Origin: an uncultured Tolumonas sp. | GTDB lineage: Bacteria; Pseudomonadota; Gammaproteobacteria; Enterobacterales; Aeromonadaceae | NCBI RefSeq assembly: GCF_963556105.2 | Contig: NZ_OY829944.1 | Coordinates: forward strand, 2,323,515-2,387,514 | Length of the DNA: 64,000 nt | Direction of reading: 5' to 3' | Part shown: piece after piece, positions 6,614 through 62,219 of the stretch | Numbering within the stretch: the first letter of the stretch is position 1 | Layout: every line of letters starts with the position of its first letter | The notes under the pieces: generated by a model | What the model was told of the DNA's origin: nothing | Databases searched by the model: none | What the model saw: the letters and a program-made list of their open reading frames with translations, nothing else | Made by a program: the position numbers and the translations under genes

Positions 6614-7171
6614 ATGAATCAGATTTTATTCATCATCATTATTTTTACCGGCTTGGCTTTACTCTTCGGGGTACTGCTGGGTTATGCCGCTATTCGGTTC
6701 AAAGTGGAATCAGACCCCATCGTTGATCAACTGGATGCTATTTTGCCGCAAACACAATGCGGACAATGTGGCTACCCTGGTTGTCGCCCGTACGCACAAG
6801 CGATTGCAAATGGCGATAGTATCAACAAATGTGTGCCTGGCGGTTCGCAGACAATCCAAAAAATTGCCGATTTGATGGGGGTAGAGCCACCGTCAGATGA
6901 TAACGAATTACTAATAAGCCCACCGAAACGCGTAGCTTTCATCCATGAAAACCTGTGCATTGGCTGTACTAAGTGCATTCAGGCTTGTCCGGTAGACGCC
7001 ATCATTGGTGCGCCTAAACAGATGCATACCATCCTGCGCAGCGAATGTACCGGTTGTGACCTGTGCGTTGACCCGTGCCCAACGGACTGTATCGAAATGA
7101 TCGAATTACCTGCCACGCCGGATCGCTGGAAGTGGGATGTTGAAACAATTCCAGTGAGAATGGTGCAATGA
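6614..7171 (+). CDS. rsxB: Electron transport complex ferredoxin subunit RsxB
   Basis: 185 residues. An N-terminal membrane anchor (about 1-25) is followed by a four-Cys cluster motif (CGQCGYPGC and a later Cys) near residues 49-75, then two ferredoxin-type [4Fe-4S] motifs, [12 protein letters not shown] near 115 and [12 protein letters not shown] near 145. It carries electrons between the soluble donor and the membrane subunits. Its stop overlaps the rsxC start by 4 bases (ATGA), which indicates translational coupling. Confidence 0.96.
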
Positions 7172-9297
7172 GTATTCTGAATATCATCAGTAAAATCCGT
7201 AAAGGAAAGATCTGGGACTTCCACGGTGGGTTGCATCCCGATGAGCATAAGCGTGAATCCAGTGAAGTACCGTTAGTTAACGCCGGTATTCCGCCGTTTC
7301 TGGTTATTCCAATCAAACAACACAGTGGTCGCATCGGACGTTTGTTAGTAAAAGTCGGCGATCATGTTCTAACCGGTCAGCAGTTAACCGCCAGCGATCA
7401 CCCGATGGAAGTACCGGTCCATGCCAGCAGTTCAGGTGTCATCACCTCGATTGAATTGCATACCGTGGCACATCCATCCGGTTTAAGCGAACCTTGTATT
7501 CACATCAAACCCGATGGCTTGGATCAATGGCGGGAACGCGACCCTTGGCCAGATTTTCATCGTTATGATGCGGTTCAATTGTTCGACCGAATTCGTCAGG
7601 CCGGTATTGCTGGTTTGGGCGGTGCAGGCTTTCCGACTTACGCCAAATTGAGCGTAGCGCGTGAGAAAGCAGAGATCGTCATCATCAATGGGGCCGAATG
7701 TGAGCCTTATATTACCGCCGATGACCGACTGATGCGCGAGCATGCGCGAGAGATCCTTGAGGGCGTTGAGATCATTAAACACATCTTACGCCCTACCATT
7801 ACGATCATCGCGATTGAAGATAATAAGCCGGAAGCGATCGCCGCCTTTTTATTACACCCGTTGCCTGACGATGTCATCGTGCGTGTGATACCGACCAAAT
7901 ATCCGTCTGGCAGTGCGCGTCAACTGATAGAGATCCTGACTGGTAAACAGGTGCCAGCCCGCGGACGTTCATTGTCTATGGGTGTTGTCATGGTCAACGT
8001 TGGTACAACATACGCCATCCGGCAAGCCATTATTGAAGATGAACCGTTGATCCGCCGTGTGGTGACACTCACCGGCTCCCAATTTAAAAAACCTGGTAAC
8101 GCTTGGGTGCGTTTAGGTTCGTCTGTTCGCTGGCTATTGACACAATTCTCACTGACTCCTGAACCTCGTCAGCGCGTCATCATGGGCGGCTCGATGATGG
8201 GCTTTACCCTGCCCCATGCTGATGTGCCGGTAGTAAAAATAACCAACTGCCTTTTGGCGCCAAGCGTATCCGAATTGCCACCGCGCGATGACGAGGTGAA
8301 TTGTATTCGTTGCGCAAAATGTGCCGATGTGTGTCCGGTAAAATTACTGCCACAGCAACTCTATTGGTACAGCCGGGCCGGTGATCACGAAAACGCTGAA
8401 AAATATAATCTGTCTGATTGTATTGAATGTGGCGCTTGTGCGTGGGTTTGCCCGAGCAACATTCCACTGGTGCATTACTATCGTCAGGAAAAAGCAGAAA
8501 TCGAACATCTGCGCGAAGAAGCCGCGCAAGCCGAACGCGCAAAATTGCGTTTTGAAGCGAAAAAACAACGCTTAGAAGAAGAGCGGTTAGCTCGTGAAAC
8601 ACGAGCGCCTGCACCAGCTCGGCCTGTGGTTTCCGGCGACAGTGACCCTGTGGCAGCAGCCATATTGCGCATTAAAGCACAGCAAAACAAAGCTGGAACT
8701 AGCGCGGATCTTCAGGCAGAACGCGAAGCTCGAAAAGAGCAGGCTCGTCAGCATCAAGCAGAAAAAGCACAGCAAGCTGCAAGTGGCAATAACAACCCAG
8801 CAGTTGCAACCAACGACGACGCCCGTAAAGCAGCTGTCGCTACCGCACTGGCAAGAGCAAAAGCACGAAAAGCCGAGTTGGTGGGTAATACATCAGATAG
8901 CTCAGCAATAAATGCAGAGCAAGAACCCGTGGCATCTGTTGACCCAGAAGCTGCCAGAAAAGCGGCTGTAGCTGCAGCGATTGCCAGAGCGAAAGCTAAA
9001 AAAGCGCAGACTGAGCAGCCTGTCGTGCCAGTCGCAGACGTGGAACAAACAACCGAAGCAGCAGATCCCGACGCAGCCAGAAAAGCGGCTGTCGCTGCTG
9101 CAATTGCCAGAGCGAAAGCTAAAAAAGCGCAGACTGAGCAGCCTGTCGTTCCAGTCGCAGACGTGAAGCAAACTACCGAAGCAGTTGATCCCGATGCCGC
9201 CAGAAAAGCGGCTGTCGCTGCTGCAATTGCCAGAGCTAAGGCGAAGAAAGCACAGGCTGAGGCTGACTCTGCCAGTAACACAGAAACACAGGGATAA
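7168..9297 (+). CDS. rsxC: Electron transport complex subunit RsxC with Ala/Lys-rich repeat tail
   Basis: 709-residue peripheral subunit. It has an N-terminal barrel/sandwich part, a Rossmann-like NADH/FMN-binding core with [13 protein letters not shown] near residue 150 and NGAECEPY near 175, then two ferredoxin motifs [12 protein letters not shown] and [12 protein letters not shown] (about 375-430). From about residue 440 the tail is coiled-coil, rich in Glu, Arg, Ala and Lys, and ends in copies of a [20 protein letters not shown]-type repeat of 41 residues. Such repeat tails are known in gammaproteobacterial RsxC, vary in copy number, and make the protein longer than clostridial RnfC (about 440). 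The catalytic core is intact. Confidence 0.95.
8941..9276 (+). repeat. Tandem 123-bp in-frame repeats in the rsxC tail
   Basis: Three near-identical units whose ARKAAVA codons start at 8953, 9076 and 9199, exactly 123 bp (41 codons) apart. The last unit is truncated after the helix-forming part. A more diverged fourth copy lies upstream (cgt of its ARKAAVA at 8824, 132 bp before the next). The repeat length is a multiple of three, so gain or loss of units keeps the frame. Confidence 0.9.
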
Positions 9298-44873: not shown

Positions 44874-44950
<77 letters not shown>

Positions 44951-55361: not shown

Positions 55362-55363
55362 AA

Positions 55364-55401
55364 ACTGATAGCCGGTTGATTTAGTTCAACCGGCTATCAG
55401 T
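55364..55401. terminator. Long bidirectional terminator between helicase and hybrid kinase genes
   Basis: Perfect 16-base arms ACTGATAGCCGGTTGA and TCAACCGGCTATCAGT with a six-base loop, A-tract before and TTT after. The kinase stop codon lies in the right arm. Confidence 0.9.
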
Positions 55402-57421
55402 TTAATCTGCTGTACAGCGCCTGCCATGAGGCCTCAGCCACATTTGTCGTTGCCTGCAATAGCGCAACTATGTTCGGTTTTGATTCACGGCAGGCCACTT
55501 CTAACTGACCACACATATCCTGTAACGCAACAGCACCAAGTGCACCAGCGGTGCTTTTCACGGCATGGGCATGTTTCGCACAAGCTGCAATATCGCCTTG
55601 CTTGAGCAACTCCGGCAGTGCATCAAAATGCGCTTTACTCTCTTGCAGGAAAATCGCGACCAGCTGTTTAAATAAATCAGGGCTGGTATCACTGATCAAT
55701 GTTTGAATAATGGTTTCATCAAGTATCGGTTTAGTAGTTCCAACCATAGCGACAGGTGCAAGTACTGGCTCTTCGCTGTTTTCAACTACACTATCTTTAT
55801 GCAATGCCCAGCGCTTTAACATGGCATAGAGCTGCTCCCGCTGCAGTGGTTTACTCAAATAATCATTCATTCCCGCTTCTAAACACGCATCACGATCATG
55901 CGCAAAGGCATGAGCGGTCATCGCTAATATCGGTAATGTTTGATAATGCCCGCCTAAAGCCCGGATGCGGCGTGAAGCTTCCAAACCATCCATACCTGGC
56001 ATGGACACATCCATCAGCACTACATCAAACGCCGCTTTTTGTACCTGTTCAATCGCCTCATAGCCATTATTTGCAATAGTGATCTGACAACCGACTTTTT
56101 CCAGCATCGCCGTTGCGACCATTTGGTTTGTCAGACTATCCTCTACTAACAATGCAGTGATAGGTAATAACTCCATCTCACCAGCCGAACTTTTTTCATG
56201 CACAACACCGCTGGTTTTCACCGGCAATGTAAACCAGAACGTACTGCCCACACCGGCAACCGAATAACAGCCGATTTTGCCACCCATCAGCATGACTAAT
56301 CGGGCCGTGATAGCCAGCCCAAGCCCAGAACCACCAAAACGACGATCGAGATTAGTGTCGACTTGTGAAAATTCCTGAAATAGACGAAGTTGATCTTGTC
56401 GGGAAATCCCAATGCCCGTATCACTGATATGAAACACCATCATCGGTACAGAATCTAAGTTATGCTGATCTTCAGGTAACATGCGCACAGAGATGTTTAC
56501 GCTGCCAGATTCGGTGAATTTAATCGCATTAGCCAACAGATTTTGCAGTATCTGACGCAGCCGTGATGGATCTGCAGAAACAACCTCAGGAATGTTATCC
56601 CCGATACTCAAACCGAAATGCAGTTTTTTTATCAGCGCCTCTTTTTCAAACAAAGCGGCTAATCCATCCAATAAATCATGCAGCTTGAATGACGTGGCAA
56701 CTAATTCCAATCGACCCGCTTCGATACGGGAAAAATCCAATACATCATTAACTAGTTGCAATAATGACCGGCCACCTTCACAAACCCCTTGGGTCAATTT
56801 ACGTTGACGCTCATCTAAATGCGTTTCAAGCAGTAACTCAGAGAGGTTGATAACTGCATTCAGTGGCGTACGGATTTCGTGACTCATGGTAGCTAAAAAG
56901 TGACTTTTAGCTTTATTAGCCGCCTGAGCATCATCTCTTGCTTGGATCATGCTCTGTTGTGCCAGTTTTAAACGCTGAAATTGGCGACAACTATTCAGCG
57001 CTAACGCCAGTTTATTAACCAGCGGAACAATTTCACGAAACAAAGCATCACGAAACGGTGAGCTTCGTCCTAGCAATAACGCACCATAATCCTGGATCGG
57101 CCAGGCATAATAAAACAGCCCGGCTGACTCAAAATAACAAAGTGGAGTGGGTAAAACATCGTGATTTGTCAGACATTCTAACGAGCGGTTAATCGCCTGA
57201 TGCAAATAATGATTACGGACTGCCGCGCGTGGCAAGATATAGGTTGGTGTATAAAAATCGTCTTGTTCATCACGCAACAGGACAACGGCCGAAGCGCAAC
57301 CAAGCCCTCGCAAAAAAACTGGGATGCATTCTGCCAGCATTTTTTCCAGCTCAATGCTTTCACCAATCGACATGGCGATTTCATGCAATACTTCTTGTTC
57401 AATTAATCCCTGACGTATCAC
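55397..57421 (-). CDS. Soluble hybrid histidine kinase with receiver and Hpt domains
   Basis: 674 residues, no transmembrane segment. The N-terminal GAF-like region (about 1-145) has no recognised ligand motif. A short helix follows, then HisKA with phospho-His181 (FLATMSHEIRTPLN), HATPase_c (about 285-400; N box LANAIKFT, G1 DTGIGI, G2 GGSGLGLA), a receiver with Asp471 (LMDVSMPGMDG) and Lys525 region (YLSKPL), and a C-terminal Hpt with His619 (AHAVKS). It overlaps the FIST gene by 23 bases, so translation is coupled. Resembles NahK of Pseudomonas and VpsS of Vibrio cholerae in gene context; the Hpt could pass phosphate straight to the LuxO-like regulator. Confidence 0.9.
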   Translation of the reverse strand: MIRQGLIEQEVLHEIAMSIGESIELEKMLAECIPVFLRGLGCASAVVLLRDEQDDFYTPTYILPRAAVRNHYLHQAINRSLECLTNHDVLPTPLCYFESAGLFYYAWPIQDYGALLLGRSSPFRDALFREIVPLVNKLALALNSCRQFQRLKLAQQSMIQARDDAQAANKAKSHFLATMSHEIRTPLNAVINLSELLLETHLDERQRKLTQGVCEGGRSLLQLVNDVLDFSRIEAGRLELVATSFKLHDLLDGLAALFEKEALIKKLHFGLSIGDNIPEVVSADPSRLRQILQNLLANAIKFTESGSVNISVRMLPEDQHNLDSVPMMVFHISDTGIGISRQDQLRLFQEFSQVDTNLDRRFGGSGLGLAITARLVMLMGGKIGCYSVAGVGSTFWFTLPVKTSGVVHEKSSAGEMELLPITALLVEDSLTNQMVATAMLEKVGCQITIANNGYEAIEQVQKAAFDVVLMDVSMPGMDGLEASRRIRALGGHYQTLPILAMTAHAFAHDRDACLEAGMNDYLSKPLQREQLYAMLKRWALHKDSVVENSEEPVLAPVAMVGTTKPILDETIIQTLISDTSPDLFKQLVAIFLQESKAHFDALPELLKQGDIAACAKHAHAVKSTAGALGAVALQDMCGQLEVACRESKPNIVALLQATTNVAEASWQALYSRLN

Positions 57422-58529
57422 TGGCCAGCAATCCCACTACAGAAGTTTTGTTATAGAGTTCCAGATAATCATAGCCGCTATTAGCTATCTCCCCTAACGT
57501 CAGGGCCCCGGCAAGAGGAACATCATTCATCGATACATGGGTGATTTCCCGGGCAAATAATTCCCCAAGGAATAAAACGCGCGAAATACAATCCATAAAC
57601 AACATCAGCTGTGGTGTACGGCCTTTCAGATTTTCCATCGCTCGCTGACGAGCCCGCCCTGCAGCAGCCGAAACATAATCTGGTTTACCATGCATCACAT
57701 GCACATACGAGCCACGCCGCACTTCACCAACACAAACAATACGCTGACCTTTAAGTGCGATTGGATCACGGATCACCAGCTCATCAGCCAGTTTGGCAAT
57801 ACCAAAAGGATATGCGCGGGCAATTTCTGAAAATGGAATTTCACAAAACCGCAGGCCCGAATGATCTTCAACTACATTCCGATACACGTCGGCAGCGGGA
57901 CGCCAGTCAATCGAGATGATTTCATTACCCTCTACTTCAGTGACTTTAAACGCCCGTGAAATAGATTGCCAGCCATGTGCGACACCAATACCACTGGTGA
58001 TGTCGGCCATTAATAACAGCGCCGCATCTTGCAAAATACCTTGTGGGGTTAATACACACGGCTGATCCAGTTTTTGCAAAGTGCCACAACCACCACCGAT
58101 ATAGTTGATCTCGAGGCCATATTGATTAAATAAGCCGTCAACTAATCGCTGAACGCCTGAACTCATACCATGTACAAAGGTAAACAGCGTTCCCCGCTCC
58201 ATGTTTTGCCAGGGAAGTTGTTTTTGTAATTCAGTTTCTATCTCAACCGTTTTACTTAGCGCCGGAATAACCGCCATGCTGAATGAACAAGCAAACCCAA
58301 TTAATACAACCCCCGCGGTCAACAGCGACTTGCAATATAGAACATAGGGGAATATGCCGCCGATAATAGGTTTGGGGTTAATAACCAAGAGATTATTAAT
58401 CTCATCATGAGCGATGTCTGTCTGCGACGCCAGCAGCATCATAATGAATTTGATCTCAGGATCGTCATTCATTAACTGCAATTCAAGTTGTAACTGAGAC
58501 ACCCCTTCTGACACCAGCACACTTTTCAT
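57399..58529 (-). CDS. FIST-domain sensor protein (NosP-like)
   Basis: 376 residues. FIST N-terminal domain (about 25-235) with YIGGGCGTLQ (143-152) and GVAHGW (182-187), FIST_C (about 245-365) with the GRARQRAMEN helix, LMLFMDCISR and a GALTLGEIA segment typical of the family. No signal peptide. FIST proteins sense small ligands; the NosP branch binds haem and nitric oxide and controls a partner hybrid kinase encoded next to it, which is exactly the arrangement here. Haem binding is inferred from context, not shown by a motif I can verify. 37 bases after the LuxO-like gene. Confidence 0.82.
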   Translation of the reverse strand: MKSVLVSEGVSQLQLELQLMNDDPEIKFIMMLLASQTDIAHDEINNLLVINPKPIIGGIFPYVLYCKSLLTAGVVLIGFACSFSMAVIPALSKTVEIETELQKQLPWQNMERGTLFTFVHGMSSGVQRLVDGLFNQYGLEINYIGGGCGTLQKLDQPCVLTPQGILQDAALLLMADITSGIGVAHGWQSISRAFKVTEVEGNEIISIDWRPAADVYRNVVEDHSGLRFCEIPFSEIARAYPFGIAKLADELVIRDPIALKGQRIVCVGEVRRGSYVHVMHGKPDYVSAAAGRARQRAMENLKGRTPQLMLFMDCISRVLFLGELFAREITHVSMNDVPLAGALTLGEIANSGYDYLELYNKTSVVGLLASDTSGIN

Positions 58530-58566
58530 ACACCGACCTCATCACCATCAAAATACGCTATGACTT

Positions 58567-59952
58567 TCACGTCGATTGCCATGCCAGTCGTTTGCGATAG
58601 ATAGTCGATGGGCTCAACTCAAGTAAAGTTGCTGCCTGAGGAATATTGCCATCACATGCTGCAATGGCATTTTCGATGGTTTCTTTTTCTACCAACCACA
58701 TGGGGCGAATTGTTTCCATACTGTTCACAACTACAAGTGGCGCGACTACGGCTGCTTTTTGTGGAATTACAGCTACGGGCACAGAGTTCAGTGGCGGCGG
58801 GAACATAATCGGTAACACACGGTCGCCATCATGCAAAACAACCACATTACGGATCACATTCTGCAATTGCCGCACGTTACCAGGCCATTCGTAATTCAGC
58901 ATCATTTGAGCAGACTCGGGGCTGAAATCAGAAAAATGTTTATTCTCTTCAGTCGCAAATTGCCTCAGGAAATTTCGGGCGATCGCTAATACATCCTCAC
59001 CCCGTTCACGCAATGGAGGTAACGCTACCGGTATAACATGCAACCGGTAGTAGAGATCTTCGCGGAAACGCCCAGCCTGCACTTCAGCAATCGGGTCACG
59101 ATTTGTCGCACAAACAAAGCGCACATCTACGCTTTCCAGTTTACTGCCACCAACCCGCTGGAATGTACCTGTTTGAATAAAGCGTAATAATTTGGATTGT
59201 AAATCCAATTCCATTTCGCAGATTTCATCGAGGAACAATGTGCCGCCATTCGCCCGGGATGCCGCCCCTTCCCGATCACTTTGTGCGCCAGTAAAAGCGC
59301 CTTTAACATGGCCGAAAATCTCACTTTCGATCAAATCGCGCGGAATAGCCGCACAATTTAAAACCACCAGTGGTTGATCTTTTCGTGGGCTGATTTTGTG
59401 TAATGTTTCTGCGCAAACTTCTTTGCCGGTACCACTTTCCCCAGTAATAAAGACGGTTGCTTTACTCGGTGCGGCACTTTCCAATATGCGGTAAACCGCC
59501 TGCATCGACAGTGAACTACCGATAAAACCACCAAAGCCTGAGTGGTCATAATTGGCTCGGTAAGTATCCACCAGTGAGGCTAATTGCTGGTGTTTAGCGG
59601 CATTGCGTACTGTCGTGCACAAGCGTTTGCCATCAAACGGTTTGGTCAAAAAATCAAATGCGCTGTGCCGCATCGCTTCAACAGCAATATCAACAGAACC
59701 ATGAGCTGTGATCACCACGACACTGGTTGGTAACCCTTGTTCACTCACGTAGCGCAGCAGCGCCATACCATCCATGTCGGGTAATTCCAGATCAAGCAAC
59801 AGCACTTGCGGCGGTTGCTCTTTCAACGCATCCAACCCATCCTGACCGAGACGAAAGGCCTTGATTTGGTAGGGTTCTGCACGTAAATAATCCTGATAGA
59901 GCATGGACAGCATCTCGCTGTCTTCTACCAAATAAACCAGTGGACTCGACAT
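58567..59952 (-). CDS. luxO: LuxO-like sigma54-dependent response regulator
   Basis: 461 residues. Receiver domain with Asp54 (LLLDLELPDMDG) and TAHGS/Lys KPF region; AAA+ sigma54 activator domain with Walker A GESGTGKE, GAFTGA loop (HVKGAFTGAQSD), Walker B GGTLFLDEI and RFREDLYYRL; C-terminal Fis-type HTH (AIAACDGNIPQAATLLELSPSTIYRK). Several stretches match Vibrio LuxO closely: FIGSSLSMQAVYR, ESAAPSKATVFITGESGTGK, KLLRFIQTGTFQ and SPSTIYRK. In vibrios luxU follows luxO; here a FIST gene and a hybrid kinase follow. It may be the LuxO orthologue or a paralogue. First gene of the operon. Confidence 0.85.
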   Translation of the reverse strand: MSSPLVYLVEDSEMLSMLYQDYLRAEPYQIKAFRLGQDGLDALKEQPPQVLLLDLELPDMDGMALLRYVSEQGLPTSVVVITAHGSVDIAVEAMRHSAFDFLTKPFDGKRLCTTVRNAAKHQQLASLVDTYRANYDHSGFGGFIGSSLSMQAVYRILESAAPSKATVFITGESGTGKEVCAETLHKISPRKDQPLVVLNCAAIPRDLIESEIFGHVKGAFTGAQSDREGAASRANGGTLFLDEICEMELDLQSKLLRFIQTGTFQRVGGSKLESVDVRFVCATNRDPIAEVQAGRFREDLYYRLHVIPVALPPLRERGEDVLAIARNFLRQFATEENKHFSDFSPESAQMMLNYEWPGNVRQLQNVIRNVVVLHDGDRVLPIMFPPPLNSVPVAVIPQKAAVVAPLVVVNSMETIRPMWLVEKETIENAIAACDGNIPQAATLLELSPSTIYRKRLAWQST

Positions 59953-59985
59953 TGTTATTCTCTTTGTTTTAGTGCTCTGTTTACC

Positions 59986-62063: not shown

Positions 62064-62137
62064 TGGAGGCGCGTCCCGGAGTCGAACCGGGCTAGACGGA
62101 TTTGCAATCCGCTACATAACCGCTTTGTTAACACGCC
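62064..62137 (-). tRNA. tRNA-Cys (GCA)
   Basis: 74 nt with encoded CCA. Anticodon loop ATTGCAAAT gives GCA. Acceptor GGCGTGT pairs with ACGCGCC (one G-T). Nearly identical to E. coli cysT. Second gene of a Gly-Cys tRNA operon. Confidence 0.97.
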
Positions 62138-62143
62138 TTAAAT

Positions 62144-62219
<76 letters not shown>

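Follow-up and report, generated by a model that had tools for sequence, protein, structure and literature searches.

A 64-kb stretch of DNA from an uncultured Tolumonas sp. (referred to here in its entirety as the window) carries on its minus strand three closely packed genes, encoding a LuxO-type sigma54 activator, a FIST protein and a soluble hybrid kinase, which on balance appear to form a single relay. In this relay the FIST protein would act on the kinase, the kinase would signal to the LuxO-type activator through a LuxU-like histidine phosphotransfer (Hpt) domain of its own, and the activator would drive the transcription of a small RNA. This reading was built from sequence comparisons and structure prediction. 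The source genome of the window (G000, 4.0 Mb in 6 contigs; hereafter the own genome) was examined within a comparison set of 61 genomes, cited below by G numbers, with individual loci cited by L numbers. The set includes eleven genomes of Tolumonas, the own genome among them (group g1), three metagenome-assembled genomes of a sister genus within the Aeromonadaceae (g5), and eleven genomes each of two further genera of this family (g4 and g2), of which we take g4 to correspond to Aeromonas and g2 to Oceanimonas-like bacteria. A Vibrio-like genome with four Qrr genes (G057) was also included.

Gene organization and conservation of the operon

The features of the operon, in window coordinates, are as follows.

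58567..59952, minus strand: LuxO-type sigma54 activator of 461 amino acids (aa), with receiver Asp54, an AAA+ domain with GAFTGA and a Fis-type helix-turn-helix (Pfam Response_reg, Sigma54_activat and HTH_8)
57399..58529, minus strand: FIST protein of 376 aa, with N and C domains (Pfam FIST_N and FIST_C)
55397..57421, minus strand: soluble hybrid kinase of 674 aa with a GTG start, GAF-HisKA-HATPase-REC-Hpt, with His181, Asp471 and His619 (Pfam HisKA, HATPase_c, Response_reg and Hpt)
56942..57421, minus strand: GAF-fold N-terminal domain of the kinase, residues 1-160 (AlphaFold2 and Foldseek)
55400..55747, minus strand: LuxU-like Hpt domain of the kinase, residues 559-674 (LuxU profile, boundaries from hmmsearch)
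55362..55403, minus strand: terminator-like hairpin of 18 pairs closing the operon (terminator scan)

The luxO and FIST genes are separated by 37 bp, and the FIST and kinase genes overlap by 23 bp. These open reading frames (ORFs) and the residues Asp54 and His619 agree with an earlier description of the three minus-strand genes made from the letters alone (the sequence-only reading). All four kinase domains which that reading had named, HisKA, HATPase, REC and Hpt, were also recovered by Pfam, but it had overlooked the N-terminal domain. Residues 1-160 have no Pfam match; their AlphaFold2 model has a pLDDT of 90.8, and GAF domains are among its top Foldseek matches (best E 1.1e-4). With regard to the hairpin, it should be noted that terminators were overall no commoner in the scan than in shuffled sequence.

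A FIST orthologue was found in all eleven Tolumonas genomes, the ten besides the own genome showing 69-99% identity, and LuxO in ten of the eleven, the missing one being G004, whose contig stops ~0.7 kb past the FIST gene. The order luxO-FIST-kinase could be read in six genomes (the window, G002, G003, G005, G007 and G008, the kinase of the last being cut by a contig end). The recurrence of FIST and LuxO across the genus indicates that the gene set is not a product of chance. In g5 a FIST orthologue is present in all three genomes (39-51% identity, one partial), and a single gene on the opposite strand separates luxO from the FIST-kinase pair (the FIST gene of G017 is cut by a contig end). A scan of contigs gave 13 FIST loci, four of them distant (Desulfobacteraceae, Flammeovirgaceae and Fulvivirga). 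A kinase-like ORF comes next after the FIST gene at all four (Pfam having been run for two), and no luxO was seen at any of them, with L129 having no upstream sequence. Because the distant loci have the kinase with no luxO seen, it is suspected that the FIST-kinase pair is the older unit, to which luxO would have been added within the Aeromonadaceae.

The LuxU-like domain of the kinase

A LuxU profile (A3), constructed from five stand-alone LuxU-like proteins, was run on the 61 genomes and matches were listed down to ~28 bits. In the own genome, the Hpt domain of the window kinase was the top match at 59.3 bits, followed at a distance of 26 bits by a runner-up of 32.9. The same Hpt was the top match in 9 of the 11 Tolumonas genomes, the kinases of the other two (G001 and G010) being cut by contig ends; the nine include G008, which has only a contig-start fragment that was taken as the tail of the same kinase. 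No stand-alone LuxU was present among the matches listed for the eleven genomes. The short Tolumonas frames among these matches were the G008 fragment and a 173-aa frame near the start of a G001 contig (32.8 bits), the latter matching in the manner of the 787-aa kinase of other Tolumonas, and neither resembles LuxU. Pfam finds 12 Hpt domains in the own genome, all within frames of at least 679 aa. The periplasmic domain of LuxQ was found in none of the 11 Tolumonas and none of the 11 g4 genomes, but is present in 11/11 of g2, 1/3 of g5 and in G057.

These results support the proposal of the sequence-only reading that the kinase Hpt, through His619, replaces LuxU within a self-contained circuit from FIST to LuxO. 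The inventory of luxU, luxO and luxPQ genes that it had called for came out as one LuxO, no periplasmic LuxQ domain and, among the matches listed, no stand-alone LuxU. A stand-alone LuxU-like protein does occur in all eleven g4 genomes (91-105 bits), where it does not adjoin luxO. Where its surroundings were read (L147-L153 and L186-L188), the gene adjoins yvcK and the genes of a VpsV-type FIST protein and a VpsS-type kinase.

The LuxO-type regulator

Alignment showed that the regulator retains the receiver Asp, the GAFTGA motif and a LuxO-like recognition helix (SPSTIYRK). It scored 647.7 bits against the NCBIfam LuxO model, which is under the cut-off of 800, a value passed by G057 alone among the 61 genomes. 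The best match to this model in the own genome stands at 647 bits and the runner-up at 381, and a second LuxO is absent. A tree of 43 LuxO rows placed the regulator within a clade of Tolumonas, g5 and g4 sequences (20 rows, support 99/97), while the LuxU-linked LuxO proteins of g2 and g5 formed a separate clade (12 rows, 99/99). Both clades are represented in g5, and the Vibrio-like LuxO was left unplaced. The tree has long branches, and a single clade uniting the LuxU-linked rows with the window clade is not rejected by the approximately unbiased (AU) test (p 0.13). The earlier label of LuxO-like is correct, although the protein belongs to a clade distinct from that of the LuxU-linked LuxO. 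At the strict threshold, LuxO was matched once in ten of the eleven g4 genomes, and the nine of these placed in the tree all fell in the clade of the regulator.

A small RNA preceded by LuxO operators

A conserved RNA of ~75 nt was identified in 18 genomes (11/11 of g2, 3/3 of g5, three of g4 and once in the own genome). It consists of TTTATCCCGTGCTCTCTTC, followed by a 7-bp hairpin, a 7-bp terminator stem and a T-run, and is located as follows.

G000:C1:1392964-1393046 (L198:7965-8047), plus strand: own copy of the RNA, outside the window
L050, L056, L059, L060, L061, L063, L065, L066, L068, L069, L070, L090, L093, L152, L186, L187 and L188: other loci with the RNA

In g2 the RNA lies directly after luxU, and in 3/3 g5 genomes and the three g4 loci that span the site it lies beside a VpsS-type kinase gene. 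The own copy is found between folE and the exonuclease I gene, beside a uvrB that is 76% identical to the uvrB adjoining luxO-qrr1 in G057. No relics of luxO, luxU, vpsV or vpsS were detected in the 17-kb stretch around it, the sole match being one of 10 residues (E 0.32). All 14 base pairs of the RNA hold in 18/18 sequences, with a C-G/U-A exchange at one pair in eight of them; as the stems hardly vary, the support from covariation is thin. For the Tolumonas copy, the folding energy is -24 kcal/mol (z -4.7).

The −24 element of the RNA, TTGGCA, is invariant (18/18). A LuxO operator lies at most 230 bp upstream of the RNA in 12 of the 18 sequences with up to one mismatch and in 17 with up to two, compared with 1.9% and 9.1% of random windows, respectively, and the own copy is preceded by a perfect operator, TTGCAAATTGCAA. 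Perfect operators occur at eight sites in the own genome against three for the reversed pattern, and none of the eight has a strict GG-N10-GC promoter at 40-200 bp in the right orientation. In two g4 genomes with a LuxO of the regulator's clade (G016 and G026), operator and RNA are both present. The ~75-nt RNA at the uvrB locus is the probable output of the relay.

Six carrier loci (L136, L188, L097, L093, L152 and L186) showed no Rfam match to the RNA at E <= 5, and the Rfam Qrr model finds nothing in the Aeromonadaceae. For Tolumonas, neither this model nor the Vibrio Qrr core gave anything beyond chance; two own-genome matches to the model (20.2 and 15.2 bits) were rejected, being by eye gene ends with terminator-like hairpins and without the Qrr core. 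The search for Qrr genes that the sequence-only reading had suggested was thus unsuccessful with the Rfam model and with the Vibrio core, but another small RNA was reached by way of the LuxO operators. A covariance model of this RNA (R1), run over 78 sources (845 kb), returned the known copies as well as partial antisense matches to their terminators. The one full-length match outside this set was a Vibrio-like qrr at 17.3 bits, which is not significant (E 0.68) and suggestive only.

The 25-nt 5' region of the RNA was compared with 129 gene leaders and gave no clear outlier, the leaders of FIST and the kinase ranking 5 and 6 and that of luxO 21. The luxO leader (window 59973-59985, minus strand) contains AGAGCAC and TAAAAC complementary to this region. 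The 7-nt AGAGCAC is found in four of the six Tolumonas luxO leaders examined, which is a lead only; given this recurrence, a Qrr-like feedback of the RNA on luxO is possible.

The proposed relay and its alternatives

It is proposed that the FIST protein would bind a small cytoplasmic ligand and act on its partner kinase, perhaps via the GAF-fold N-terminus. Within the kinase, phosphate would pass from His181 to Asp471 and on to His619, which, standing in for LuxU, would phosphorylate Asp54 of LuxO. Phosphorylated LuxO would then drive sigma54-dependent transcription, most likely of the Qrr-like RNA at the uvrB locus and perhaps also of polysaccharide genes. The sequence itself shows the conserved gene order, the catalytic residues, the lack of the LuxQ sensor domain and of a second LuxO, the LuxU-like Hpt and, ahead of the RNA, the operator with its −24 element, and no stand-alone LuxU is among the matches listed; binding of a ligand, each phosphotransfer, any sign of control, a link from LuxO to the RNA in the source organism and a function of the RNA are inferred.

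Several observations weigh against this relay. On the LuxU profile, unrelated Hpts in G046, G052 and G056 score 50-60 bits, and the groups are not resolved in an Hpt tree of 42 rows (AU p 0.37 for a joint group of LuxU and the kinase Hpt). Within Tolumonas the RNA was seen in one genome only, the stretches of G003 and G007 that were examined for it lacking both it and the uvrB-folE block and being uninformative either way. The RNA also occurs in one g4 genome (G013) where LuxO goes unmatched at the strict threshold, and in one g2 genome (G025) no operator precedes it. The −12 element of the RNA is TTTC or TTCC and not TTGC; it is thus atypical, and for this reason the RNA failed the strict GG-N10-GC promoter scan. 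Near the Tolumonas operon, the sole pair of operator and promoter lies inside the FIST gene and in G000 and G001 only.

That scan sought a LuxO operator (at most one mismatch) 40-200 bp ahead of a GG-N10-GC promoter in 1,196,210 bases of loci. It yielded 44 hits, of which 22 were distinct, compared with 3 in reversed sequence; the loci are non-random, several having been chosen for luxO or Qrr, and the hits include the four qrr genes of G057. In 3/3 g5 genomes, LuxO-type operators with sigma54 promoters were found on both sides of luxO, a point in favor of the proposed relay as well.

L089:3571-3650 and 6699-6807: g5 operator-promoter sites
L091:3678-3790 and 8979-9063: g5 operator-promoter sites
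L092:4561-4683 and 830-932: g5 operator-promoter sites

These sites precede a STAS gene (Pfam, 3/3) and a glycosyltransferase-like gene (Pfam for 2/3 proteins, one under the cut-off). Sites of this kind were also found next to other LuxO paralogues, ahead of a STAS gene in L098 and of a receiver-SpoIIE gene in L101, an arrangement that we take to resemble the SypG regulon. The g5 sites, those of L098 and L101 and the atypical −12 of the RNA are all in favor of an alternative in which, as with SypG, the targets of the relay are polysaccharide or partner-switching genes, and the RNA is controlled otherwise. However, neither genes nor sites of this type turned up near the Tolumonas operon, and the own RNA has its perfect operator. 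This alternative is considered unlikely, though still worth keeping in view, and it is compatible with the relay proposed here.

It is rather improbable that the kinase mainly signals to another regulator, with other kinases feeding LuxO and the shared operon linking the genes in expression only. Such an arrangement would fit g4, where the same LuxO clade occurs without an adjoining kinase and LuxU lies elsewhere, as well as the many receivers and the 12 Hpt domains of the own genome. It is opposed by the conserved gene order with its overlap, by the Hpt of the window kinase being the most LuxU-like of its genome, and by the lack, among the matches listed, of a stand-alone LuxU to serve other kinases.

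As to the origin of the proposed relay, Tolumonas may have lost the density-sensing parts LuxQ, LuxU and the LuxU-linked LuxO but retained the output side of quorum sensing, in which a LuxO-type activator drives an unclassified Qrr-like RNA family, and connected it to FIST and to a kinase that carries its own LuxU, a history that we hold to be slightly short of an even chance. If it is true, a quorum-sensing relay would have been turned into a single-input ligand sensor. The result would be a minimal LuxO circuit of sensor, kinase, activator and small RNA, in which the LuxU step can be folded into the kinase, and a LuxO-linked small-RNA family would be placed in the Aeromonadaceae.

The FIST protein and nitric oxide

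The sequence-only reading had likened the FIST protein to NosP and proposed nitric oxide (NO), or another ligand, as its possible signal; the NosP and NO part of this was not supported. The protein scored 23.2 bits against the curated NosP model NF041558, whose cut-off is 450. A VpsV-type protein of G057, adjoining a kinase and ccoN, scored 71.5 bits and so is also far under the cut-off, which means that a low NosP score alone does not exclude haem. The suggested phylogeny with NosP, a tree of 35 FIST rows (midpoint root, long branches flagged), placed the protein outside the NosP (97/89) and VpsV (100/100) clades, in a clade that also takes in a second FIST protein of the own genome and the distant relatives (17 rows, 100/99). 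At the columns of 161 and 353, where histidine is typical of NosP, and of 255 and 358, where it is typical of VpsV, the window protein has Thr, Tyr, Asp and Leu. In g5 and the other rows of the clade, Asp takes the place of His120, which the Tolumonas rows have in common with VpsV. Invariant in the 17 rows are His185, Cys158 and Cys266, and Cys314 is also common to the NosP and VpsV rows. With this score, placement and lack of the typical histidines, a NosP identity was rejected as the default; the residue pattern suggests a different ligand site, for which NO is a possible ligand but would not be assumed by default. The protein's structure model (pLDDT 92) has FBXO22 as its best fold match (E 1.7e-9), and no significant sequence relative was found in the PDB (best E 0.22).

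An NO circuit, in which the FIST protein would be a haem-binding NosP and the kinase its target, like VpsS in Vibrio cholerae, has in its favor the FIST fold, the FIST-kinase pairing, the similarly low-scoring VpsV-type protein and the inhibition of VpsS by haem-bound NosP given in the available part of the published account (PMC6769237), but is quite improbable in view of the separate clade, the replaced histidines, a His120 that is not clade-wide and a 426-bit NosP-like protein adjoining its own kinase elsewhere in the own genome. If this is right, a FIST-kinase pair would not always be a nitric-oxide sensor, which calls for caution.

In all, four further FIST genes were noted in the own genome, at G000:C1:1009443 (the NosP-like one, by its kinase), 989187, 743843 and C5:319347. 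Those other than the NosP-like gene are a 702-aa chemoreceptor-like frame, a gene by a hybrid kinase and an HD-GYP-like regulator, and an 853-aa GGDEF/EAL-like frame, the receptor, HD-GYP and GGDEF labels having been given by eye. The window also contains three tRNA genes, two of them adjacent, at 62067-62219 (minus strand) and 44874-44947 (plus strand).

Comparison with known systems

The literature was searched among open-licence papers only. No description of a single operon with a built-in Hpt and without LuxU, of the present FIST clade or of the RNA family was found there, nor, by title, of a Qrr-like RNA of the Aeromonadaceae, both being weak negatives, and none was found that deals with LuxO together with Tolumonas. 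For Aeromonas, the accessible part of a review lists LuxQ, LuxU, LuxO and LitR homologues, with genetic evidence only (PMC5247445).

The idea of a path from FIST to LuxO is already contained in the NosP(VpsV)-VpsS-LuxU-LuxO system of V. cholerae, as far as the available portions of the papers go (PMC6769237; PMC8738867; PMC4398556). Both systems have a FIST protein beside a soluble hybrid kinase and a relay ending in a LuxO-type activator. However, the VpsS-type kinase (as in G057) ends in a receiver and, according to these portions, uses LuxU, whereas the Tolumonas kinase has its Hpt built in; in addition, luxO lies inside the Tolumonas operon and the FIST clade is different. The inhibition of VpsS by NO-bound NosP described for V. 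cholerae (PMC6769237, in the part available) is a sign of control that was not transferred to Tolumonas.

The step from a kinase-borne Hpt to a LuxO-like activator is likewise present in the HnoX-HahK / SypF-SypG system of Vibrio fischeri, in what was accessible of its descriptions (PMC12369376; PMC10162802). It shares with the Tolumonas operon a ligand-controlled kinase, an Hpt carried by a kinase (SypF) and a LuxO-like sigma54 activator. It differs, on the same partial sources, in having an H-NOX rather than a FIST sensor, two kinases and a LuxU that is still present.

The Tolumonas RNA resembles Qrr (RF00378) in its LuxO-type operator, its TTGGCA −24 element, its hairpins and T-run, and in a position near uvrB like that of luxO-qrr1 in G057. 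It is unlike Qrr in lacking an Rfam Qrr match and in its different core, its one internal hairpin and its atypical −12. Judged against the portions of the literature cited here, the component ideas are already known, and what appears to be new is their union in one operon whose kinase has its Hpt built in, with no LuxU among the matches listed, together with the FIST clade and the RNA family.

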